IMG/VR virus record: IMGVR_UViG_3300024346_000017
Coordinates: 1-64,000 of that record
Reading direction: 5' to 3' (one strand)
Length of the DNA: 64,000 bases
Origin: a virus
In this document: in pieces, positions 1 through 64,000 of the stretch
Layout of the letters: each line of letters begins with the position of its first letter
How positions within the stretch are numbered: position 1 is the stretch's first letter
Translations under genes and position numbers: made by a program
The notes under the pieces: generated by a model
The model's input: only the letters and a program-made list of their open reading frames with translations
Told to the model about the DNA's origin: nothing
Database searches by the model: none

Positions 1-187
1 TTGACACCACACCTGTGGAAACAGAACCAGTTGACACCACACCTGTGGAAACAGAACCAGTTGACACCACACCTGTGGAAACAGAACCAGTTGACACCAC
101 ACCTGTGGAAACAGAACCAGTTGACACCACACCTGTGGAAACAGAACCAGTTGACACCACACCTGTGGAAACAGAACCAGTTGACAC
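1..187 (+). repeat. 30-bp in-frame tandem repeat, six exact copies
   Basis: Positions 1-180 hold six identical 30-bp units and a seventh begins at 181. The unit is a multiple of three and encodes a decapeptide, TPVETEPVDT, in the frame of the CDS that runs to 944. The array continues beyond the left window edge. Identical copies suggest recent expansion by slippage or recombination. Confidence 0.97.
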
Positions 188-944
188 AGAGCCAGTGACG
201 GGATCAGAAGAAGATGTAACAAATACAGTTGATGATGCATTGGAAGATGGTAAAATTGATAGTACAGAAGTTGAAGAAATTGCAGATGCAATGGCAGCAG
301 ATGGAGAAATTGATTCAGAAGAAACAGATCAATTAATTGAAGCATTAGCAGAAGATGGAAAAGTTTCTGTAGCAGATCAAGAAGCAGTTCTGGAAGCACT
401 TGCGTCAGACGGAGAAGTTTCAAAAGAGGATGTTGCAGCCATTGTTGAATTAGCTAACTCAGATGGTAAATTATCTGAAGCAGAAAAAGATATTGTTGCC
501 GATGCATTAATTCAATCTGTTCCAGAAGGTGAAAATCTTACTAAAGAACAGGTAGCGGAAGCTGGAATTAAGTTATCAGATTTGCCAGCAAGCACACCAG
601 TTGATGTTAGAACATCTGAAAATGGAGACTCAGTTGTTATCACGGCAGAAGTTGCAGTACAAGTAGAATTAATATCTGACCCAGCGGCATTTGCACAAGA
701 GTTATTTAATGACCCAGGAGCAGCCCTACAGGCCTTGGGAAGCATAGGTGCAGATATGACAGAAGGCGAAAGAGAAGAGGCAACTGAAATGGTTGTAGCA
801 ACAGTTGTAGCAGCAGGTGCGGCAATTAACGCAGCAGCAGTTGCCGCAGGAGGAGCCACAGGGGGTGGCACAGGAGGCGGAGGAAGTTCTGGTGGAGGCT
901 CAGGAGCCAATTCACCAGGTTCACGAGGAGGAAGAAAATGGTAA
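3..944 (+). CDS. Repeat-rich protein with acidic DG-motif helices and Gly-rich tail (5' partial)
   Basis: The gene is open to the left window edge, so its start is missing. It begins with Thr/Pro/Glu/Val decapeptide repeats. These are followed by four or five acidic segments of about 20 residues, each with a core such as DGKIDSTE, DGEIDSEE, DGKVSVAD, DGEVSKED or DGKLSEAE. That spacing recalls degenerate EF-hand or TerB-like helical pairs. The last 40 residues are Gly/Ser-rich and end in SRGGRKW. No enzyme motif is visible. The stop overlaps the next gene, a small membrane protein, so the two are co-translated. Function is unknown; a virion surface or envelope-associated role is possible. Confidence 0.8.
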   Translation, partial: DTTPVETEPVDTTPVETEPVDTTPVETEPVDTTPVETEPVDTTPVETEPVDTTPVETEPVDTEPVTGSEEDVTNTVDDALEDGKIDSTEVEEIADAMAADGEIDSEETDQLIEALAEDGKVSVADQEAVLEALASDGEVSKEDVAAIVELANSDGKLSEAEKDIVADALIQSVPEGENLTKEQVAEAGIKLSDLPASTPVDVRTSENGDSVVITAEVAVQVELISDPAAFAQELFNDPGAALQALGSIGADMTEGEREEATEMVVATVVAAGAAINAAAVAAGGATGGGTGGGGSSGGGSGANSPGSRGGRKW

Positions 945-1715: not shown

Positions 1716-1946
1716 TTGCTTAACTTGACAGAACTAGGAGTAGAGGTCTTTATAAAAAGATCTAATTCTAAAAATTTACAATCTTTTTGGAATAACTATT
1801 CTTTGGTAATTTGGAAAAAAAATAATTCTGGGTTCACAAATAAAAAAGGACTGTTCAAAAATGAATGGGGTATTGCAGAAGAATTTGCAATCAACGAAGA
1901 CGGACTATGGAAACTTCCATTACAATATGTCAAAAATTTTAAATAG
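1716..1946 (+). CDS. Hypothetical protein, 76 aa
   Basis: Starts at TTG 1716 behind AGGAAG (1705-1710), directly after the tRNA. It is basic and rich in Trp, Asn and Lys (KNEWGIAEEF..DGLWKLP). No known domain. It overlaps the start of the WhiB gene in another frame. Confidence 0.6.
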   Translation: MLNLTELGVEVFIKRSNSKNLQSFWNNYSLVIWKKNNSGFTNKKGLFKNEWGIAEEFAINEDGLWKLPLQYVKNFK

Positions 1947-2235
1947 TCTAGGTTTAGATAAAGATTCACTTCAATGGCAAGACTTAGCTCTTTGCCTTGG
2001 AATGGATACTAATCTGTTTTTTGATTCATATGAAGCAGATGTTAACATAGCCAAAAGCATAGATCAAGCTTGCATGTCATGTCCAGTTATAGCAATTTGT
2101 TACAAATACGGCACAGAGTCAGATAACTATGGAGTTTGGGGCGGAGTGTATTTAAGTTCTGGTACCCCAGATAAATCAAAAAATTCACACAAAACAAAAG
2201 AAACTAACAAGAAGCTAAAGGGATTACATGGCTAA
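1927..2235 (+). CDS. WhiB-family Fe-S transcriptional regulator
   Basis: This 102-aa protein has the WhiB signature: a first Cys in LALCLGMDTNLFF, then CMSCPVIAIC, giving the four cluster ligands (C...C-x2-C-x5-C), followed by the GVWGG turn. WhiB proteins bind a [4Fe-4S] cluster and usually work with the primary sigma factor; they are restricted to actinobacteria and their phages. I chose ATG 1927 because it fits family length; an upstream in-frame ATG at 1861 would add 22 non-homologous residues. The stop overlaps the next gene's ATG region. Confidence 0.9.
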   Translation: MSKILNSLGLDKDSLQWQDLALCLGMDTNLFFDSYEADVNIAKSIDQACMSCPVIAICYKYGTESDNYGVWGGVYLSSGTPDKSKNSHKTKETNKKLKGLHG

Positions 2236-2551
2236 CTTTATAAATAAAGATAAAGATCACTTTAAATACGGAATTAATGAATGGACTGGTGAAGCAAATA
2301 AACCAGTTTTTTATACAAAAGAAATGGCACAAAAGGTCAGAGAACTTAAAAGCCCTGCACACGACTTACAGATGGATATTGTAAAGTATCCTGAATTTTT
2401 AGCAATAAGATTATATGAAAACAATTTTTCACAGTACGATGGAAGTATGAGAATGAGAGTTATAGATTATATCGAGATGGTTAAAAGGATCCTAGAATCA
2501 TATGGGGTACGAGTCGAGTTGGAGGGGAAGCCAGGTGGAAGAACAAGGTGA
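2228..2551 (+). CDS. Hypothetical protein, 107 aa
   Basis: Translationally coupled to the WhiB gene by an 8-base overlap. Soluble and mixed charge, with a central amphipathic part (MRMRVIDYIEMVKRILESYG). No domain recognised. Its last codons contain the strong RBS GGAGGGGA used by the following gene. Confidence 0.65.
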   Translation: MANFINKDKDHFKYGINEWTGEANKPVFYTKEMAQKVRELKSPAHDLQMDIVKYPEFLAIRLYENNFSQYDGSMRMRVIDYIEMVKRILESYGVRVELEGKPGGRTR

Positions 2552-2729
2552 TGTCGCATCAATTGTGTATATTATTCCAGAAGAAAGATACGGAGTAATA
2601 GTATCACATGGGGCCTATATGTCCTCAATAAAGTACAACGATGGCTTTGAAGAAGTTATTGAGCTTTTTGACACAAAAGATTTTATTGTTTCAAATGAAA
2701 TCCCAATTATAGATACAGAGGAAAACTAA
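2535..2729 (+). CDS. Hypothetical protein, 64 aa (GTG start)
   Basis: GTG 2535 follows GGAGGGGA at 2521-2528, which fixes the start over the in-frame upstream ATG at 2502. It has a compact beta-rich look (IVYIIPEERYGVIVSHGAYMS). It overlaps genes on both sides, so belongs to a translationally coupled chain. Confidence 0.6.
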   Translation: MEEQGDVASIVYIIPEERYGVIVSHGAYMSSIKYNDGFEEVIELFDTKDFIVSNEIPIIDTEEN

Positions 2730-2965
2730 TGGAAAAAGTACTATGCTATTCTTGTAATAAGAGTAAGGCTAATTTAAATTTAAAAAGATCCGCGTTGCTT
2801 GCAATTAATCTGCTTATGTGTGAAACATGCATCACTAGTAAATTTGAGCCTAGATGGACTATAATTTTATCTGGCAGGCAGTACGGACATGAATCTGTAA
2901 AAGAATATATTGCTAAGAAAAAATATGTTGGAGAAGACATAAAAGCGTCCGAATTATTAGTTTAA
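2729..2965 (+). CDS. Small zinc-ribbon-like protein
   Basis: Seventy-eight residues with two Cys pairs, CYSC near residue 6 and CETC near residue 31, typical of a structural zinc ribbon. The ATG overlaps the previous TAA (TAATG). Function unknown. Confidence 0.6.
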   Translation: MEKVLCYSCNKSKANLNLKRSALLAINLLMCETCITSKFEPRWTIILSGRQYGHESVKEYIAKKKYVGEDIKASELLV

Positions 2966-3336: not shown

Positions 3337-3894
3337 ATGACTTGTATTGTTGCTATTGCCCAAAATGGTGTTGTGTATATGGGTTCCGACCATGCCGCAT
3401 CAGATGACAAAACTGGGTGGATCATATCTAGAAAAGAGCCAAAAGTTTTTAAGAATGGCCAGTATGGTATTGCATTTACAGATTCATTCCGTATGGGACA
3501 AATCCTTCAATACATGTGGACCCCTCCAAAGTATACACCAACTAAAACCAATTCTGGTTTAGATAAATTTATGAGAACTAAATTTGTTGATTCTGTAAAG
3601 TCTGCATTTAAAGATAATGGATACGGAAGTATTGGCTCTTCGTCAGAAGAAGATACTGGCGGAATTTTTATAGTTGGAATATGTGGTAGACTCTTTACTA
3701 TAGATGAAGACTTTCATGTCGGAGAAAATATAGTTAATTATATGGCGGAAGGAAGCGGTGGGCAGATAGCTCTTGGAGCCCTTCATGCAACAAAGAAACA
3801 ACAGAACCCAAAGCTTAGATTAAAAGCAGCATTAGAAGCAGCAACTGAGTTTAACATGAGCGTGGCTGCCCCCTATACATATATTCAAGTTTAA
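3337..3894 (+). CDS. Proteasome/HslV-like Ntn hydrolase
   Basis: This 185-aa protein begins MTCIVAI, so Met removal would leave an N-terminal Thr as in proteasome beta and HslV subunits. Downstream are GVVYMGSDHAAS (equivalent of the conserved Asp near position 17) and a basic stretch RKEPKVF near the catalytic Lys position. A later GSGGQIALGALHA resembles the conserved Gly-rich turn near the family's Ser. Length fits HslV or Anbu subunits better than processed eukaryotic beta subunits. No ATPase partner is nearby. It has its own leaderless promoter: TATACT (3325-3330) ends six bases before the ATG. Confidence 0.75.
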   Translation: MTCIVAIAQNGVVYMGSDHAASDDKTGWIISRKEPKVFKNGQYGIAFTDSFRMGQILQYMWTPPKYTPTKTNSGLDKFMRTKFVDSVKSAFKDNGYGSIGSSSEEDTGGIFIVGICGRLFTIDEDFHVGENIVNYMAEGSGGQIALGALHATKKQQNPKLRLKAALEAATEFNMSVAAPYTYIQV

Positions 3895-3908
3895 GGTATA
3901 ATTTGTAT

Positions 3909-4280
3909 ATGGAAATAGCATTAATAATATCTGTCTCTATTGCAGTAGTACTGTCAATATTTTTCCTGACCATGTTTTTTAAGAGATTCAAGGTCGGATT
4001 TTACTACATAGATAAGTACGAAGAGGCAGTAAAAGAAATGTTAAATCTAATGGAGATAAATGACCCAAGATACATACCTCCAGTTGATTATGATAATGCC
4101 ATAGACATGAGAGGCACCCCAACACATGTATGTCTATGTGGGTCAGAAGTCTGGATGATTAAAGCAGTTTTTAGAGACTACGAGATAGCTACATATTTCC
4201 TAGACATGGAATGCCTAGCCTGTGGCAGCCTTGCCACAGCACCAACACCAATAGATAAGAGCAACATTGATGAGGTCTAA
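3909..4280 (+). CDS. Membrane protein with C-terminal zinc ribbon
   Basis: Starts at ATG 3909, six bases after TATAAT (3897-3902), so leaderless; an in-frame TTG at 3903 is not needed. A transmembrane helix (about 3-24) is followed by a cytosolic domain with CLC and CLAC Cys pairs. Function unknown. Confidence 0.65.
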   Translation: MEIALIISVSIAVVLSIFFLTMFFKRFKVGFYYIDKYEEAVKEMLNLMEINDPRYIPPVDYDNAIDMRGTPTHVCLCGSEVWMIKAVFRDYEIATYFLDMECLACGSLATAPTPIDKSNIDEV

Positions 4281-4452: not shown

Positions 4453-5625
4453 ATGAAAAATAAACTAATCACGGCGGTACTTACTTTATCACTTCTATCA
4501 CCTGTAGCAATTTCACAGGCATCTGGTGCAGACGCACCAGTTCTAGCAATCCTAGACACAGCAATTGATACATCACTCCCTAATCTTCAAGGAAAGATTG
4601 TGGGAGAAGTTTGTATTCTTGAATGGCAGCTATGCCCAAATGGGACTAACTTTCAAGAAGGGGCTGGCGCAGCATCTATGCCAGCAGACCTAATTACAAA
4701 GAACGGCTTTGACCACGGAACATTTATGGCAAGTACAGCAGTTCAAGCTAATCCAAACATTAAAATACTTTTTATTAAAATTATTGGAAATACCTCTGCT
4801 GGATTACGAAAGCCAACTGGAGAATCAACCATTTCAGCAGCACTATTCTGGCTAAGAGACAATGCAGCTAAATATAATGTTAAGGCTATATCTCTTTCGC
4901 AAGGTAGCAGCGGACTACTTGGAAAAGCAGGAACACAATACTGCCCAACATTCCCAAGAACAGTATCTGCAATTCAACAGTTAAACTCAATGTCTATCCC
5001 AGTTTTTTCTGCAGCAGGTAATGCTCGTGATTACTCAAGAATTGATTGGCCTTCGTGCATCCCAGAAACAGTTTCAGTGGGAGCAGTTGATCAAATTGGA
5101 GAAATTGCATCTTATAGCAATAATGACTCATTGCTTTTAGATTTCTTTGCCCTAGGCAACATGCCTGCAGTTGGTCCAGGAAACATTTCTAAAAATATTG
5201 CTGGTACATCTTCTGCAACACAGGTTGCAGCAGCAACGTATTTAAAATTAATGACTTCATCTGGACAATCTGGAAGCCAATTAATTGATAGCATGAAAGC
5301 TAATTCAGTAAATACTATTGGCAGACAGGGCACATTTAAAAAATTGATTACGCTTTCTAATGCAGTAAGTGCTATCCCTACAAATTCAGCAGCAGCAGAT
5401 GCAGCAGCAAAGGCACTAGCGGATGCAAAGGCACTAGCGGATGCAAAGGCACTAGCGGATGCAAAGGCACTAGCGGATGCAAAGGCAGCACGAGCAGCAG
5501 CATTGAAGTTAGAGGTTGATGCTGGTATTGCAGAAGCGGAAAAGCAGTATGCAATTGATTTAAAGTTAGCCCAAGACAAGCTTGCAGCAAGTCGAGCAGC
5601 GTGGATGGCAAAACTTAATGGCTGA
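4453..5625 (+). CDS. Secreted subtilisin-like serine protease (S8 family)
   Basis: The N terminus is a clear signal peptide (MKNKLITAVL... cleaved near residue 24-26). The S8 catalytic motifs follow in order: Asp in LAILDTAID (about 35), His in FDHGTFMAS (about 88), oxyanion Asn in SAAGN (about 190) and Ser in GTSSATQVAA (about 253). After the protease domain comes an Ala/Asp/Lys helix with ALADAK repeats, then a charged coil to residue 390. It therefore looks intact, exported and tethered or oligomerised by its C-terminal coil. It overlaps the next gene by eight bases. Role inferred: cleavage of host surface or competitor proteins, or virion-associated proteolysis. Confidence 0.88.
   Translation: MKNKLITAVLTLSLLSPVAISQASGADAPVLAILDTAIDTSLPNLQGKIVGEVCILEWQLCPNGTNFQEGAGAASMPADLITKNGFDHGTFMASTAVQANPNIKILFIKIIGNTSAGLRKPTGESTISAALFWLRDNAAKYNVKAISLSQGSSGLLGKAGTQYCPTFPRTVSAIQQLNSMSIPVFSAAGNARDYSRIDWPSCIPETVSVGAVDQIGEIASYSNNDSLLLDFFALGNMPAVGPGNISKNIAGTSSATQVAAATYLKLMTSSGQSGSQLIDSMKANSVNTIGRQGTFKKLITLSNAVSAIPTNSAAADAAAKALADAKALADAKALADAKALADAKAARAAALKLEVDAGIAEAEKQYAIDLKLAQDKLAASRAAWMAKLNG
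5407..5486 (+). repeat. 18-bp in-frame tandem repeat (ALADAK), about four copies
   Basis: Near-identical 18-bp units encode ALADAK in the C-terminal helix of the subtilase. Length is a multiple of three, so copy number can vary without frameshift. Confidence 0.93.
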
Positions 5626-5824
5626 AATCACAGTACTGGACGGTATTATTAAAGATCTTGGGCAAGAACTATATCAGAAATGGTACAATGGATTAGCACA
5701 AGAAGATAGAACACCAGAAGCATCTGAGGCAATGGCTAAAAATGCAGGTGAAACAACATTTTGGATAATCCAAAATTTTATGATTCGCTTCAATGAAGCA
5801 GCAGAGGCACTAAAGGATAAGTAA
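5618..5824 (+). CDS. Hypothetical helical protein, 68 aa
   Basis: Starts at ATG 5618 inside the subtilase end and stops on the ATG of thioredoxin. Predicted all-helical and acidic. The position between a secreted protease and thioredoxin suggests one transcript. Function unknown. Confidence 0.65.
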   Translation: MAEITVLDGIIKDLGQELYQKWYNGLAQEDRTPEASEAMAKNAGETTFWIIQNFMIRFNEAAEALKDK

Positions 5825-6126
5825 TGATTGTAACTGACAGTAATTTCGATGAAGTTATTGGCTCTCATCATGTAGTCCTTGTAGATTTCTGGGCTGAATG
5901 GTGTAGTCCATGCAAAAGATTTTCTCCCATACTTGATGAAGTAGCATCAGAATATAATGTATGGATTGGAAAGATAGATGCAGATGAAAATACATTCAGT
6001 GCAGATAAATACAATGTTATTTCTTTACCTACAGTTATCGTTTTTAAAGACGGTAAAGAGGTAAAGAGAACTAAGGGAGCTATGCCAAAGCATAAGTTCT
6101 TGGAAGAGATATCCGAATGGATCTAG
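5824..6126 (+). CDS. Thioredoxin
   Basis: A complete 100-aa thioredoxin fold with the active site FWAEWCSPCK (Cys about 27 and 30) and the cis-Pro loop SLPTVIVFKDGKEV. The central residues are Ser-Pro instead of the usual Gly-Pro, which may shift redox potential. It could reduce the class II ribonucleotide reductase at 39011, the AhpC and the GPx. The ATG overlaps the preceding TAA. Confidence 0.93.
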   Translation: MIVTDSNFDEVIGSHHVVLVDFWAEWCSPCKRFSPILDEVASEYNVWIGKIDADENTFSADKYNVISLPTVIVFKDGKEVKRTKGAMPKHKFLEEISEWI

Positions 6127-12546: not shown

Positions 12547-13083
12547 ATGAAAACAGTAGGAGATAAGTTAGGAACGTTTGCAGTTACTGGTGTAAAGCCA
12601 GGCGCTTTAAGCTATGAAGATAGCTCATTTGAAGTACTAAATCAAGACTCTTTCCCTGGTAAATGGAAGATTATTGCTTTTTACCCAAAAGATTTTACAT
12701 TTGTGTGCCCAACAGAAATTGTTGCATATGATGCATTGGTAAATGATTTTAATGACAGAGACGCTGTCTTGATGACTGGTTCAGTAGATAATGAATTTTG
12801 TAAGATTGCATGGCGTAACGCACATGATGATTTACGCAAAACTAACTCTTGGTCATTTGCAGATACAGGCCACCAGTTAGCAAACGATCTTGGCGTACAT
12901 CACCCATCTGGAGTTACATACCGTGCCACATTTATTGTTGACCCAGACAATACAATTCAGCATGTTACTGTAAACAACTTAGATGTAGGAAGAAACCCAG
13001 ATGAAACTCTTCGTGTACTAGATGCACTTCAAACAGGGGAGCTATGTGCCTGTAACAGATCTTTGGGCGGAGAAACTCTATAA
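12547..13083 (+). CDS. ahpC: AhpC-type peroxiredoxin
   Basis: 178 residues. The peroxidatic Cys is in DFTFVCPTE (about 54) and the resolving pair is in the C-terminal GELCACN (about 167 and 169), matching the three-Cys arrangement of mycobacterial AhpC. It reduces H2O2, organic peroxides and peroxynitrite. AGGAG precedes the ATG. The stop overlaps the AhpD start, so the reductant is made together with it. Confidence 0.93.
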   Translation: MKTVGDKLGTFAVTGVKPGALSYEDSSFEVLNQDSFPGKWKIIAFYPKDFTFVCPTEIVAYDALVNDFNDRDAVLMTGSVDNEFCKIAWRNAHDDLRKTNSWSFADTGHQLANDLGVHHPSGVTYRATFIVDPDNTIQHVTVNNLDVGRNPDETLRVLDALQTGELCACNRSLGGETL

Positions 13084-13595
13084 TGACATGGGTGGACCAG
13101 CTTAAGGATTCTCTTCCAGAATATGCTAAAGACATTAAGTTAAATCTTGATGCTGTAATCAATAGATCATCTATAGATGCAGAGCATGCTACGTATATTT
13201 CAATAGCAGCAGCATTTGCAACAGGCAACGGTAAACTGCTTGCCTTTATTACTGCTAATGCAAACGATGAAGTTGAAAAAAATGCTGCCCTTACTGCTGG
13301 TGCCATCATGGCACAGAATAACGTTTGGTATCCATTTATTGAAATGGCTGATGACGTAAACTTAAAGGGGTTACCAGCTCAATTAAGAATGAATGCTATT
13401 ACTTCTCATGGCGGGACTACAAAAGGTAAGTTTGAAGCCTATTCATTAGCTTCATCTATTGTTGGTAAGTGTCACTTTTGTGTTAAAGCACATTATGAAA
13501 CATTAAAAGAAGAAGGCTATAGTGTAGAGCAGTTGCGTGATATCGGAAGAATTGCAGCAACAATAAATGCATTGGCAAAGATACTTTCAGCATGA
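13083..13595 (+). CDS. ahpD: AhpD alkylhydroperoxidase
   Basis: 170 residues, close to the usual 177. The catalytic set of the family is in place: Glu about 118, the CHFC pair (Cys 130 and 133) and His about 137. In mycobacteria AhpD passes electrons from lipoamide/SucB to AhpC. Finding both adjacent genes on a phage, overlapping by one base, suggests a working peroxide-reduction system. Confidence 0.92.
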   Translation: MTWVDQLKDSLPEYAKDIKLNLDAVINRSSIDAEHATYISIAAAFATGNGKLLAFITANANDEVEKNAALTAGAIMAQNNVWYPFIEMADDVNLKGLPAQLRMNAITSHGGTTKGKFEAYSLASSIVGKCHFCVKAHYETLKEEGYSVEQLRDIGRIAATINALAKILSA

Positions 13596-14062
13596 TCAAA
13601 AGGCCTGCTTGGATATTTGACGTAGATGGTACATTGGTTGATGTTGATCCAATACTTCACCATATACTAAATCAAAACAGGTCAAGCGAGTCATTTAAAA
13701 AAAACTACGATACTTTTCATAAAGAATCTGTAAACTGTGATCCACATAAAGATGTAGTCGATATGGTATGGCAAGTATGTAATGATTTAGATATAATTAT
13801 AGTTACTGCTCGAAAAGAAAAATACAGGGCACTAACTGCTAGATGGCTAAAGAATAACGATGTGCCGCATGATGCTTTATTTATGAGGCAAGATGACGAC
13901 AATAGAGAAGACTACGAGGTCAAAAAAGATATACTTGAGCAGATAGAAGTTTATTGGGATATAAAACATGCAGTAGACGATAACCCAAGCATCATTGGGT
14001 TATGGGAAGAAAATGGAATTCCAACCACTAAAATAGGAACATGGGACGGGGTTAAAAGATGA
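13592..14062 (+). CDS. HAD phosphatase, polynucleotide kinase 3'-phosphatase-like
   Basis: 156 residues with HAD motif I WIFDVDGTLVDVD, motif II IIVTARKEKY, a Lys/motif III region and acidic motif IV HAVDDNPSI. This is the phosphatase half of T4 PseT-like proteins without the kinase. Role: removing 3' phosphates during nucleic-acid repair, or nucleotide dephosphorylation. Overlaps AhpD and the next kinase by four bases each. Confidence 0.85.
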   Translation: MIKRPAWIFDVDGTLVDVDPILHHILNQNRSSESFKKNYDTFHKESVNCDPHKDVVDMVWQVCNDLDIIIVTARKEKYRALTARWLKNNDVPHDALFMRQDDDNREDYEVKKDILEQIEVYWDIKHAVDDNPSIIGLWEENGIPTTKIGTWDGVKR

Positions 14063-14604
14063 TAATTGGTTTATCTGGATATGCTAGATCTGGTAAAGAT
14101 ACAGCTGCAGACAGGTTGGTAGAGCAGCACATGTTTACACGGTATTCGTTTGCTGCACCGATGAAAGAGGCAATGTACAATCTTAATCCAATAGTTCATT
14201 CAGACAGCATAGGTAATTTTAGATATAAAGATTTAGTAGATACTTACGGTTTAGATGTCGCTAAAGAAAATACTCCAGAAATACGCAGGCTTCTTCAGGT
14301 GTTTGGTACAGAAGTCGGAAGAGATATGTTTGGCATTAACTTTTGGGTCGACCTTGCCTTAAATAGTATTAAAGAAGACAATGCAGTCATAAGTGATGTA
14401 AGGTTTAAAAATGAAGCAGATGCAATAAAATCAATTGGCGGCCAGGTATGGAGAATAAATAGAAATGGTGTTGGTCCAGTAACAAATCATTCTTCTGAGC
14501 TAGATCTAGACAACTATAACTTTGATTATATCATTGATAATGATTATAGTGTGGTAGACTTAAATGATGTAGTTGATATGTTATGGGAGAAAAATAATGT
14601 TTAA
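14059..14604 (+). CDS. Deoxynucleoside monophosphate kinase
   Basis: 181 residues with a P-loop GLSGYARSGKDTAAD (5-19), an Arg-rich lid and LLQVFGTEVGRDMFG, the signature of T4 gp1-like dNMP kinases. It phosphorylates dNMPs for phage DNA synthesis and works upstream of the triphosphate-using RNR at 39011. Confidence 0.9.
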   Translation: MIIGLSGYARSGKDTAADRLVEQHMFTRYSFAAPMKEAMYNLNPIVHSDSIGNFRYKDLVDTYGLDVAKENTPEIRRLLQVFGTEVGRDMFGINFWVDLALNSIKEDNAVISDVRFKNEADAIKSIGGQVWRINRNGVGPVTNHSSELDLDNYNFDYIIDNDYSVVDLNDVVDMLWEKNNV

Positions 14605-14734
14605 TTGGATAATATGTTTTGTAATAGGACATAATATAGTAAAAGCTGGTGCATGTCCATTTACTGGGAAAAATTATGATTTATGCAAGAGATGTACACA
14701 AATGTTTGAGGTGAACGATGTCAAATATAGCTAA
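14597..14734 (+). CDS. DUF1660-like small zinc protein, 45 aa
   Basis: MFNWIICFVIGHNIV..., then LCKRCTQMF: a Cys, an IGH motif and a CxxC, the layout of phage DUF1660 proteins. A paralogue lies at 21459. Overlaps genes on both sides. Confidence 0.65.
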   Translation: MFNWIICFVIGHNIVKAGACPFTGKNYDLCKRCTQMFEVNDVKYS

Positions 14735-15293
14735 CAAGCATAACGGTATATGGGAATGGCACAATGTTTTAGAAAACCCAATGGAGATGGTTGAAACTAT
14801 TGATAAAACTAAATGGGAATACTATACCAATAAAGGCGGGGGAGAAACGGTAATTGGTAGAGGTGCATCGCTACATAATGGTAGTGAAGCTCATAAAAAA
14901 GCAATGAAAGCTTTTTCTGATTGCATTTTAGAGTATTCCAAATCAAATTCTTTGAGCTTTGATAATGAAAATATAGGTGACTGGCTTTTAGTTAGAGAGT
15001 ATAACACTGGTTCTCGAATGTCAGCTCATAACGATGCATATAGTTATGTTAAAAAAGATGGGCAGCACGTCCGACCATCCTTAACTGCCATACTTTACAT
15101 CAATGATGAATATACAGGTGGCGAAATTGATTTTGTACATGACGGTATATGCATTAAGCCGCAAGCGGGATCCATGGTAGTTTTCCCTAGTGATAAACAG
15201 CATGAAGTGTTAGAAATCCTAAGTGGAGATAGATACATGACTCAAACATATGTCTATGAAAACCCACTTTCTTTTTATGATAAACCATACTAA
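14718..15293 (+). CDS. 2OG/Fe(II) dioxygenase
   Basis: Iron ligands His104 and Asp106 (MSAHNDAYS), distal His about 162 (DKQHEV) and 2OG-binding Arg about 172. The P4H-like strand LTAILYINDEYTGGEIDF separates them. GAGGTG RBS precedes the ATG. Confidence 0.88.
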   Translation: MSNIANKHNGIWEWHNVLENPMEMVETIDKTKWEYYTNKGGGETVIGRGASLHNGSEAHKKAMKAFSDCILEYSKSNSLSFDNENIGDWLLVREYNTGSRMSAHNDAYSYVKKDGQHVRPSLTAILYINDEYTGGEIDFVHDGICIKPQAGSMVVFPSDKQHEVLEILSGDRYMTQTYVYENPLSFYDKPY

Positions 15294-15311
15294 ATCTGAT
15301 ATAATATATAT

Positions 15312-15437
15312 ATGAACACTAATATTCCTCCATGTTTTTATTGCCCAGAAGATAGCAAATATTCTGAGCCAGAGCCAAAAACTGGCACAGTAATAGATGT
15401 ATGCGATAAACATTTTCATTTAAAGTACATGGGATAG
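15312..15437 (+). CDS. Small zinc-binding protein, 41 aa, leaderless
   Basis: PCFYCPED near the start and VCDKHFH near the end give Cys/His pairs for one zinc. TATAAT (15300-15305) ends six bases before the ATG. Confidence 0.65.
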   Translation: MNTNIPPCFYCPEDSKYSEPEPKTGTVIDVCDKHFHLKYMG

Positions 15438-15439
15438 TT

Positions 15440-15673
15440 GTGGCTTACAGCAGGTTCTGGGATAGCGATATATATATCTATCCTCATGTAGAAGGACATA
15501 TTTGTTGTGCCGCATGTTGGCTTTCAGAAGAAGCAAAATCAGAAATAATTGAAGATGATGAGAGCCTATTCCTTCACCTACATGAGCACTTTAAGGCGGG
15601 CCACGACATACCAGAGATGCTTTACTATGAAATTATAATGGACGAAGATAGATATAAGCCATTGACAGATTAA
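15440..15673 (+). CDS. Hypothetical protein with Cys/His motif (GTG start)
   Basis: Seventy-seven residues with HICCAACWLSEE and FLHLHEHFKAGHD, a likely zinc site. Starts at GTG two bases after the previous stop. Function unknown. Confidence 0.6.
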   Translation: MAYSRFWDSDIYIYPHVEGHICCAACWLSEEAKSEIIEDDESLFLHLHEHFKAGHDIPEMLYYEIIMDEDRYKPLTD

Positions 15674-15690
15674 CCAATAAATAGTATTAT
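15662..15690 (+). promoter_or_regulatory. Promoter for glutathione peroxidase operon
   Basis: TTGACA 15662-15667 lies in the last codons of the preceding gene; 17-bp spacer; TATTAT 15685-15690. Confidence 0.75.
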
Positions 15691-15730
15691 ATAGATATAG
15701 GGCAACTTTGCCATGAAAAAGGAGATTATT

Positions 15731-16192
15731 ATGTCAGTGTATGATTATAGCTTTACAGATAACAACGATAACAACGTTGATCTGTCACAATTTAAGGATC
15801 ATGTTTTATTGTTGGTCAACGTTGCCAGCAATTGTGGTTTTACCAGTCACTATGAAGGACTACAGTCTCTTAGCAAGAAGTATGCAGATAAAGGTCTCGT
15901 AGTTATTGGGTTTCCATGCAACCAATTTAATGCTCAGGAGCCTGGAACAGATGCAGAAATTAAAGAATTCTGTCAGGCAAATTATGGCATAGACTTCTTA
16001 ATGTCAAAGAAAATTGAAGTAAATGGAGATGATGCACACCCATTGTTTAAGTATCTAGTCTCTGAGTGTGATGTTGACAGCGTTCCATGGAACTTTACGA
16101 AGTTTCTTGTTAATGAAGATGAAATTGTACTGATGGCTCCTCACACCACGCCAGAAGAAATTGATGTTGCTTTACTGAAGATATTAAATTAG
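15731..16192 (+). CDS. Glutathione peroxidase (BtuE-like)
   Basis: 153 residues. Peroxidatic Cys35 is in NVASNCGFT, with the conserved FPCNQF (Gln about 65) and WNFTKF (Trp120, Asn121). A Cys at about 81 could be the resolving Cys, as in thioredoxin-dependent bacterial enzymes. ATG 15731 is chosen because AAGGAG lies seven bases before it; the earlier ATG at 15713 would hide the RBS. Reduces H2O2 and lipid peroxides. Confidence 0.93.
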   Translation: MSVYDYSFTDNNDNNVDLSQFKDHVLLLVNVASNCGFTSHYEGLQSLSKKYADKGLVVIGFPCNQFNAQEPGTDAEIKEFCQANYGIDFLMSKKIEVNGDDAHPLFKYLVSECDVDSVPWNFTKFLVNEDEIVLMAPHTTPEEIDVALLKILN

Positions 16193-61496: not shown

Positions 61497-61835
61497 ATGG
61501 AAATATTAAACCAAAAAAGCGAAGTTGTTGAAGAAACACGCCTAGGCATATACGTATGGGAAATGCCAGATGGGCGATGGATCGGAGACGATGATGGCAA
61601 TTTTCTTTCAATAACATCTGTAAAAGGAAATAGATCTAGAATGAACGTTCTAGCTGATGCCGTAAGACACTATGGAATATATGAAGGAAAACCAAAGTTT
61701 CTGTCTGGAAGAAGAAAGATTGATGACGAAGAGTTTGAGTATCAAAACCAAAGACTTAAATGGGGACTTACACCAGACCCTCTTGATATCGGAGAATATA
61801 AAGACCAGGTTTTACGAGGGGGATCAGTAACATGA
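61497..61835 (+). CDS. Hypothetical head-region protein, 112 aa
   Basis: GIYVWEMPDGRWIGDDDGNFLSI resembles small proteins upstream of portal in related phages. TAAACT lies nine bases before the ATG. Four-base overlap with portal. Confidence 0.65.
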   Translation: MEILNQKSEVVEETRLGIYVWEMPDGRWIGDDDGNFLSITSVKGNRSRMNVLADAVRHYGIYEGKPKFLSGRRKIDDEEFEYQNQRLKWGLTPDPLDIGEYKDQVLRGGSVT

Positions 61836-63415
61836 CACAATTTTTAGAAGACGGAACAGAAGATACATACGAGGTATCTGTTAAAAATAGCTCAGATCTA
61901 TTTTCATTTAAAAAAGAAAAAGAGCACACAGACCCATTTGGTATTGGTATAGATGACCTTAAAAAAGTAAGAGGTCTAGGAACAAACTTTAAAAGAAAAG
62001 TAAACAGAGACTTTGCAAAATCATTTACTGGTAAAGATGGTTCTGGAACACAACAGAATCTATTGCAATCTGCGGTTACTGGATATGCAATGTTTGACCT
62101 TGTTCAGCCAGTATATAACCTAGAATACCTATCTCAAATCTATGAGGTTTCAACTTACAACTACGCTGCTATCAATGCAAAAGTTGCAAACATTGTCGGT
62201 CTTGGATATTCCTTTATGGAAACAAGAAAGACAAACGATGCCCTTGATGCAATATCAGATGATAAGCAATTAGACAGAGCACGTAGAAAGCTAAATAAAT
62301 TAAAGCAGGATTTACAAGACTGGCTAGATGCAACGAACGATGAAGATACTTTTACAGAGACTCTTATAAAGGTATATACAGACTTAGAGGCAACAGGCAA
62401 CGGATATATTGAAATTGGAAGAACTACAGGCGGAGACATTGGGTATATAGGACACATCCCAGCTAAGACAATGCGTGTTAGAAGACTAAGAGATGGCTTT
62501 ATGCAATTGCTTTACGGCAAGGCTGTTTTCTTTAGAAACTTTGGAGATTCAGAAACCGTAAACCCAATTGGAGAATCAGAAGATAGACCAAATGAGATTA
62601 TTCATTTGAAGAAGTATACTCCAATGAATAACTATTACGGTATCCCAGATATTGTTGCAGCTCAAATGTCATTGGCTGGAAACGAATTTGCTGGAAGATA
62701 TAACCTAGATTACTTTGAAAACAAGGCGGTCCCAAGATATATTATTACAGTAAAGGGAGCAAAGCTTTCACCAGAGTCAGAAAGAAAATTGCTTGAATTT
62801 TTCCAGGTTGGATTAAAAGGCAAAAACCACAGATCCCTTTATATACCTTTGCCAGCAGACACACAGGATAATAAAGTTGAATTTAAAATGGAGCCAGTCG
62901 AGGCTGGAGCACAAGAGTCATCATTTAATATTTACAGACAGTCAAATAGAGACGAAATATTGCTTGCCCACAGAGTCCCAATTAATAAAATTGGTGTTCC
63001 AGAGGGAGTATCTTTGGCAAATGCCAGAGACGCAGACAAAACATTTAAAGAGCAGGTTTGTCGTCCAGCACAAATGAGATTAGAGAAAAGAATTAATTCA
63101 ATTATTGAAGAAAAGACTGACGCTCTAAAAATTAAATTTGAAGAGCTTACTCTTACAGATGAAGATACTCAATCTCAAATAGATGAAAGATATCTTAGAA
63201 TGCAGGTAATTACCCCTAATGAAGTTAGAATTAGAAAGGGATTAATTCCAGTAGATGGCGGAGACGAAATGGTTGAATTAAAACCTCAGCAAGCCGCTGA
63301 CCAAAAGGCTACAGCTGGAAAAACTAGAGCCAGGGATTCTGAAAGATCTGCTGCGTCATCGGATAAAGTCGGAGAAGGCAGAAATGCTAAAGGCGACGGA
63401 AGCCGAGTCGACTAA
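61832..63415 (+). CDS. Portal protein, 527 aa
   Basis: Typical portal features: VYNLEYLSQIYEVSTYNYAAINAK, a helical stem, GIPDIVAAQMSL, AHRVPINKIGVPEGVSLANARDADKTF, and a C-terminal basic/Ser tail. Forms the dodecameric DNA gate at one head vertex. No terminase is seen to its left, so packaging genes lie elsewhere. Confidence 0.88.
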   Translation: MTQFLEDGTEDTYEVSVKNSSDLFSFKKEKEHTDPFGIGIDDLKKVRGLGTNFKRKVNRDFAKSFTGKDGSGTQQNLLQSAVTGYAMFDLVQPVYNLEYLSQIYEVSTYNYAAINAKVANIVGLGYSFMETRKTNDALDAISDDKQLDRARRKLNKLKQDLQDWLDATNDEDTFTETLIKVYTDLEATGNGYIEIGRTTGGDIGYIGHIPAKTMRVRRLRDGFMQLLYGKAVFFRNFGDSETVNPIGESEDRPNEIIHLKKYTPMNNYYGIPDIVAAQMSLAGNEFAGRYNLDYFENKAVPRYIITVKGAKLSPESERKLLEFFQVGLKGKNHRSLYIPLPADTQDNKVEFKMEPVEAGAQESSFNIYRQSNRDEILLAHRVPINKIGVPEGVSLANARDADKTFKEQVCRPAQMRLEKRINSIIEEKTDALKIKFEELTLTDEDTQSQIDERYLRMQVITPNEVRIRKGLIPVDGGDEMVELKPQQAADQKATAGKTRARDSERSAASSDKVGEGRNAKGDGSRVD

Positions 63416-63468
63416 ATCTAATCAACTACGATTTGCCTTTTTATATGTATAAGTATAAAATTAAGCAT

Positions 63469-64000
63469 ATGAACATAGAAAAAAGCCAGTGGTCCTCTGA
63501 CGGCCAAAACCTTCATTTATCTGTTCCATTTACAAAAGTAAACAGAGAGAATAGAACCGTGTCTGGATTTGCTACATTAGATAATGTGGATCAAACAGGA
63601 GACGTTGTTACTGCTGAAGCAAGCCTAAAAGCATTCGAAGCTTTTAGAGGAAACTTAAGAGAGATGCATCAGCCAATGGCAGTAGGTAAGGTTGTATCAT
63701 TTAAGCCAGAGACATACTATGATCAGAAGTCAAAAGAATTTTACAATGGAGTTTATGTTACTTCATATATTTCAAAGGGCGCACAAGATACTTGGGAGAA
63801 AGTTCTTGACGGAACACTTTCAGGTTTTTCAATCGGCGGAAAGATTAAAGAGTCAGACAACGAAATGAATAAGTCAACAGGAGAGACTGTAAGATTTATT
63901 AAGGATTATGACCTAGTAGAACTTTCAATTGTAGATTCACCAGCTAACGAAATGTGTAATATAATTTCAATTGAAAAAGCAAATGGTCAGCTTATTTTTA
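63469..64000 (+). CDS. Prohead maturation protease (3' partial)
   Basis: 177 residues visible. GFATLDNVDQTGDVV, catalytic His in LREMHQPMAVGKV, Ser in LSGFSIGGKI and LVELSIVDSPANEM are S78/XkdF-like prohead protease motifs. TATAAA lies nine bases before the ATG. Truncated by the window; major capsid should follow. Confidence 0.9.
   Translation, partial: MNIEKSQWSSDGQNLHLSVPFTKVNRENRTVSGFATLDNVDQTGDVVTAEASLKAFEAFRGNLREMHQPMAVGKVVSFKPETYYDQKSKEFYNGVYVTSYISKGAQDTWEKVLDGTLSGFSIGGKIKESDNEMNKSTGETVRFIKDYDLVELSIVDSPANEMCNIISIEKANGQLIF

Follow-up and report, generated by a model that had tools for sequence, protein, structure and literature searches.

A gene near the left end of an uncultivated virus genome raises the question of what a proteasome-like hydrolase does in a phage, and how it could work there. 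The window analysed here is the first 64,000 nucleotides of virus record IMGVR_UViG_3300024346_000017, which is 113,108 bp long. Its portal protein, major capsid protein and DnaE polymerase are 55-58% identical to those of Streptomyces Stanwilliamsviridae phages, and the phage is a freshwater relative of that group. Because of these Stanwilliamsviridae-like proteins, together with a WhiB gene, we infer that the host is an actinobacterium. The features on which the argument draws are as follows.

1861 to 2235, plus strand: WhiB-family regulator, an actinobacterial marker (PF02467, E=8e-11), syntenic with WhiB of phages Wakanda and Jada; start of a module upstream of the hydrolase
2228 to 2551, plus strand: 107-aa module gene, homolog of Wakanda gp143 (blastp E=3e-10), in 79/79 eligible relatives
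2502 to 2729, plus strand: 75-aa module gene, homolog of Wakanda gp144 (blastp E=4e-7)
2729 to 2965, plus strand: 78-aa Cys-containing module gene (phrog_11425; 127 Streptomyces phage records)
2987 to 3304, plus strand: 105-aa protein with a hydrophobic N-terminal segment and a coiled-coil-like remainder (phrog_10127), homolog of Wakanda gp147
3337 to 3894, plus strand: predicted proteasome-like Ntn hydrolase of AAH type, 185 aa, ATG start
3903 to 4280, plus strand: 125-aa protein with a hydrophobic N-terminal segment and paired cysteines CLCG/CLAC (zinc-ribbon-like)
4453 to 5625, plus strand: secreted subtilase-like protein (Peptidase_S8, Pfam E=3e-15), syntenic in 77/77 eligible relatives
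5824 to 6126, plus strand: thioredoxin (Pfam E=2e-27), syntenic in 77/77 eligible relatives
61832 to 63415, plus strand: portal protein, 55-58% identical to Streptomyces Stanwilliamsviridae phages, which defines the lineage
63433 to 64000, plus strand: prohead maturation protease (Peptidase_S78), continuing to record position 64812

The hydrolase gene starts 32 bp after the end of the 105-aa gene, and the 125-aa gene starts 8 bp past the hydrolase stop. The product of this downstream gene is conserved beside the hydrolase, and its C-terminal half resembles a protein of the Planktophila phages LanE43-AprE7 and AprF5 (E=1e-5; E7 and F5 below). The five genes from WhiB to the 105-aa protein recur gene for gene in two Streptomyces phages examined in detail (Wakanda gp142-145 and gp147), plus one extra membrane-protein gene. 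The hydrolase forms the downstream edge of this module, a place taken in the Streptomyces phages by an unrelated small gene and tRNAs. A profile search that included positive controls did not detect the hydrolase in four representative Streptomyces phages, and those without it keep the adjacent WhiB module. Because these phages share the module and lack the hydrolase, the gene is either a lineage-specific gain or was lost on the other side.

Other features of the genome were recorded along the way. The subtilase has a C-terminal ALADAKALADAKA repeat and evolves fast (dN/dS 0.25) near the highly constrained hydrolase; repeated PVETEPVDTT units make up an N-terminal stretch of the protein encoded at window positions 15-944; and the 113-kb genome encodes nine or more predicted members of the 2OG-Fe(II) oxygenase superfamily.

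The open reading frame itself is real, since its homologs and a dN/dS of about 0.04 argue against chance. The first-pass annotation had drawn attention to a threonine behind the initiator methionine and to the Asp/Lys framework of HslV and beta subunits, and both observations hold. The protein begins Met-Thr, with a predicted nucleophile at Thr2 (Thr1 once Met1 is removed); Asp18 and Lys36 become Asp17 and Lys35 after loss of Met1, and the offset between Lys35 and Lys33 of HslV is a two-residue insertion. In an alignment of 46 viral and bacterial AAH-type proteins, T2, D18 and K36 are identical in 46/46, as are T48, S50, R52, G54, Q55, G139 and G141; these residues lie in part within a signature, F47-T48-D49-S50-F51-R52-M53-G54-Q55, and a second motif, G139-S140-G141. 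Across 17 phage proteins (the hydrolase and 16 homologs), D18, K36, G139 and G141 never vary, and position 2 holds either Thr or Ser. This 17-sequence alignment held no stretch conserved enough for searching bacterial and viral proteins, for which a closer set worked. Because T2 is identical throughout the 46 homologs and Cys3 varies (V or A in eight of them), the sequences point to Thr2, and not Cys3, as the likely nucleophile. The usual oxyanion-glycine position (Gly47) is occupied by Ser or Asp (T48-[SD]49-S50) in the sequence alignment, where an alignment shift may explain the difference. Most variation falls within a loop at residues 94-110, after helix H2, in the position of the pore loop of ring-forming homologs. 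The frame remains open for only 4 codons upstream of the ATG, so a propeptide is impossible, and the earlier remark that no prosequence is present stands.

An AlphaFold2 model built on the 46-sequence alignment (pLDDT 91.3, pTM 0.88) predicts a proteasome beta fold, with beta sheets flanked by four helices at residues 51-60, 75-93 (H2), 142-151 and 158-172, strands between them, and a strand at the end. A Foldseek search of the PDB with this model ranked BPH first (TM 0.77, prob 1.00), followed by HslV (about 0.70) and then 20S beta subunits; a profile search of PDB sequences likewise placed BPH at the top (E=2e-5) and aligned position 2 to HslV residue 1. The initial call of a proteasome-like Ntn hydrolase is thus confirmed at the level of predicted fold, the deviating fold that would have refuted it not having been predicted, and the comparison with HslV, Anbu and 20S beta that it proposed finds BPH and then HslV nearest. 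The suggestion that it is Anbu-like is not supported: no Anbu structure appeared in the first 50 PDB matches, and the four helices of the model end at residue 172, whereas a C-terminal fifth helix is the Anbu hallmark (PMC8665760).

We then asked to which family the protein belongs. Its PHROG assignment is PHROG 1040, 'peptidase HslV family' (E=2e-19); Pfam gives no more than a hint of PF00227 (E=0.07), and the NCBIfam HslV model TIGR03692 is not among the matches listed, of which the best, TIGR03634, scores 18 bits against a cut-off of 224. Viral contigs hold 324 relatives, and the best 80 of the 324 are all full length and at least 90% identical. Relatives at E<=0.01 occur in 204 isolate-phage records, every one below 60% identity, including phages of Vibrio, Geobacillus, Moorella and Salmonella, and chromosomal relatives 38-46% identical occur in Frankia, Streptomyces, Actinomadura, Azospirillum, Rhizobiales, Pelosinus, Marininema and Paenibacillus. 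A tree puts the window clade next to other phage homologs (moderate support, 91/91), in the AAH-like part and with a long stem of its own.

Fuchs, Alva and Lupas surveyed proteasome homologs in 2021 and named 22 new ones (PMC8665760). The group I families that the survey reports from phages include PPH, of about 140 residues and without H2, and AAH, which is spread over alpha-proteobacteria, Actinobacteria and many phages; its authors could not find Actinobacteria-specific phages encoding AAH (PMC8665760). Because the bacterial distribution is that of AAH, H2 is present and the length is 185, we provisionally file the hydrolase as AAH-type. It has the same compact group I subunit, Thr-Asp-Lys site, lack of propeptide and H1-H4 without a C-terminal H5 extension, with relatives in alpha-proteobacteria, Actinobacteria, Firmicutes and phages, as published; it differs in its actinophage lineage and its own long-stem clade. 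The hydrolase is thus no one-off protein. What is new is an AAH-type protein within an Actinobacteria-specific phage lineage; the kind of hydrolase had already been described in that year.

Comparison with the other families sharpens this placement. BPH (PDB 5OVS, 5OVU) has the same fold, is the closest solved structure and also has no known unfoldase partner, but is only 17-21% identical, and a double heptameric ring has been shown for BPH only. HslV (ClpQ) shares the beta-type fold, the N-terminal Thr, the Asp17/Lys33 equivalents and a similar length; it differs in that the phage has no HslU, and its TM score is lower than that of BPH. PPH is likewise a phage-borne group I homolog, but at about 140 residues it lacks H2, as does RPC, whereas the 185-residue hydrolase has H2 at residues 75-93. 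Unlike 20S beta subunits, the hydrolase has neither a propeptide nor an alpha-subunit partner, and it is the single proteasome-like gene in the phage genome.

Four other actinophages encode phrog_1040 Ntn hydrolases: E7, F5, DSL-LC01 and Microbacterium phage Pumpernickel. Their proteins are about 26-33% identical to the window hydrolase and carry a GAAGD/GVAGD-type motif where it has FT[SD]SFRMGQ; in the tree, which does not include E7 and F5, the AAH clade excludes those of DSL-LC01 and Pumpernickel. E7 and F5 correspond to OX376640 and OX376641, listed unannotated as 'Caudovirales sp. ct2KA10', and are the first cultured Nanopelagicales phages (PMC10202952). Each encodes an unannotated 178-aa Ntn hydrolase with 33% identity to the window protein (E7: phrog_1040, E=4e-30), directly after the portal gene, a position that would suit a capsid protease in those two phages. 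The E7 genome contains no relative of the window phage's portal, and therefore unrelated freshwater actinophage lineages carry such enzymes. As a separate observation, DSL-LC01 (OQ999401), whose genome also has no relative of the window portal, encodes its HslV-like hydrolase directly beside WhiB.

How much the gene matters to the phage can be gauged from its conservation. Searches with portal or polymerase, independent of the hydrolase, yielded six lineage contigs that reach 100 kb or more: G004, G019, G030, G031 and, through polymerase, G006 and G009. All six carry the hydrolase. Partial contigs of 41-91 kb were left out of this count because absence there may reflect fragmentation. Among the 80 nearest loci, the hydrolase has a dN/dS of about 0.04, against 0.11-0.25 for eight neighbouring genes at similar dS, values that are rough because dS is near 1 and the loci were selected by the hydrolase itself. 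In contigs found by other genes the hydrolase is again among the segment's most conserved genes; in one of these comparisons (L427) it is 91% identical, against 46-62% for WhiB and two flanking genes. Because it is present in every near-complete member of the lineage and is the most constrained gene of its neighbourhood, we conclude that the hydrolase matters to the phage.

Around bacterial AAH genes, clustering of open reading frames at 80 loci, which is noisy in high-GC DNA, yielded no conserved partner across genera, and synteny was genus-specific (Azospirillum, Frankia), in agreement with the published lack of a conserved AAH partner (PMC8665760). In several Rhizobium genomes, AAH shares an in-frame stop after codon 38 with homology continuing past it, a candidate for either a shared pseudogene or readthrough.

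A scan of 57 phage proteins found no AAA+ unfoldase among the 25 Pfam families listed, and AAA_2 was found in 0/15 phage records searched. The sole AAA match falls below the cut-off; it is at 110.5 kb, where a P-loop kinase of about 254 aa is predicted. The statement that no ATPase lies nearby therefore extends to the whole 113-kb genome, and no HslU/ClpX-type AAA+ partner encoded together with the hydrolase was found.

Taken as a whole, the evidence leads us to favour, tentatively and at somewhat less than even confidence, a self-assembling, Thr-dependent peptidase of AAH type that works without a dedicated ATPase. The fold and the Thr/Asp/Lys site are supported by prediction and alignment. 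Host methionine aminopeptidase would remove Met1 and leave Thr as the N-terminal nucleophile, and activation would then need no propeptide processing. Because of the BPH-like fold and the compact subunit, the most likely product of self-assembly would be a single or double ring like those of BPH and HslV, with loop 94-110 facing the cavity. Without a phage AAA+ unfoldase, the particle would take unfolded, damaged or short polypeptides, or borrow a host ATPase, and its role may be general or semi-specific proteolysis during infection. Because the gene follows the WhiB module and lies upstream of thioredoxin, a link to host takeover or to clearance of damaged proteins is plausible. The genome also encodes an AhpC-like peroxiredoxin and an AhpD-like CMD protein at 12.5-13.6 kb and a glutathione peroxidase at 15.7 kb (range 12547-16189), and this set, with thioredoxin, is compatible with damaged-protein clearance, but freshwater phages often carry antioxidant genes as cargo (PMC6802176).

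The fold and the residues are no proof of proteolysis, because the family includes connectase, a monomeric ligase (PMC8665760). The hydrolase might accordingly be a dedicated processing protease or ligase, with connectase-like specificity for one phage or host protein, and not a bulk degrader. The very strong constraint over the whole protein would suit such a role, and the tight packing of the gene, with gaps of 32 and 8 bp to conserved genes for small proteins that have hydrophobic N-termini, might reflect a constant partner. Against this, the AlphaFold2 model keeps H1 and H2, which are missing from connectase, and has no helical insertion between S3 and S4; the flanking genes are not annotated beside homologs in other phages, and no partner shared across genera emerged among the bacterial homologs. 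We regard a dedicated processing enzyme as unlikely, though as the nearest rival to the self-assembling peptidase.

Proteins with PF00227 occur in 100 of 118 sampled actinomycete genomes but are absent from 59 of 61 genomes, mostly 1.2-1.9 Mb, of one streamlined actinobacterial order; the premise that actinobacterial hosts have proteasomes thus stands for most sampled actinomycetes and fails for this order. AAH was found in 0/61 of the same genomes, a set that contains no positive control, by a search that does find AAH in phage records. Seven single-contig members are 1.22-1.43 Mb with 42-48% GC in 15-kb samples, a size and composition that we take to fit Nanopelagicales, and the order is probably Nanopelagicales. 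The isolate LanE-43 has 46.5% GC (PMC10202952). A search of 14 genomes from this order turned up no AhpC, and the best relatives of the phage AhpC are 48-53% matches in large actinomycete genomes, with none in the streamlined order; these matches neither support nor exclude that order as host. A more specific form of the peptidase reading, in which streamlined actinobacteria that have lost both proteasome and HslV receive from the phage an ATP-independent mini-proteasome that works on its own and, alongside the antioxidant set, replaces a missing protein-quality function during infection, is in our judgement distinctly unlikely.

An improbable alternative is that the protein lacks catalytic activity, or that its Ntn scaffold serves for structure or binding. 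The Ser or Asp at the expected oxyanion glycine in the sequence alignment could be taken in this sense, but T2, D18, K36 and G139-x-G141 are invariant over the 46 homologs, as expected of an active site.

It is very improbable that the hydrolase targets a host proteasome by capping it, serving as a decoy or joining it as a mixed beta subunit, or that the two degrade host factors jointly. The frequency of PF00227 among the sampled actinomycetes would permit this, but the domain is missing from nearly all of the streamlined order, so that if the host belongs there capping is excluded for nearly all members. The protein ends in YIQV, not an HbYX-type activator tail, and its fold is nearer to BPH than to 20S beta. 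Further, many relatives occur in phages of Vibrio, Geobacillus, Moorella and Salmonella, hosts in which no 20S proteasome is known. Capping of the host core, as first proposed, is consequently not borne out, its premise being uncertain and its tail motif missing.

A prohead protease is scarcely credible here: although the E7/F5 relative lies directly after the portal gene, a frequent place for prohead proteases, capsid maturation in this phage has its own separate S78 enzyme, encoded between portal and major capsid protein, the hydrolase lies 58 kb away in the WhiB module, and in the Streptomyces relatives a capsid protease is encoded separately and the hydrolase is missing. A literature search found no phage Ntn prohead protease.

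A self-assembling AAH-type peptidase thus remains our preferred, if tentative, reading. Proteasome-like homologs are widespread in phages, and we found no AAH or PPH protein of known function; a literature search returned no later functional work on either family, and we know of no characterised AAH protein. The relatives in E7 and F5, whose hosts are probably without a proteasome of their own, together with a cultured Planktophila host, would make it possible to test what a viral proteasome homolog does.
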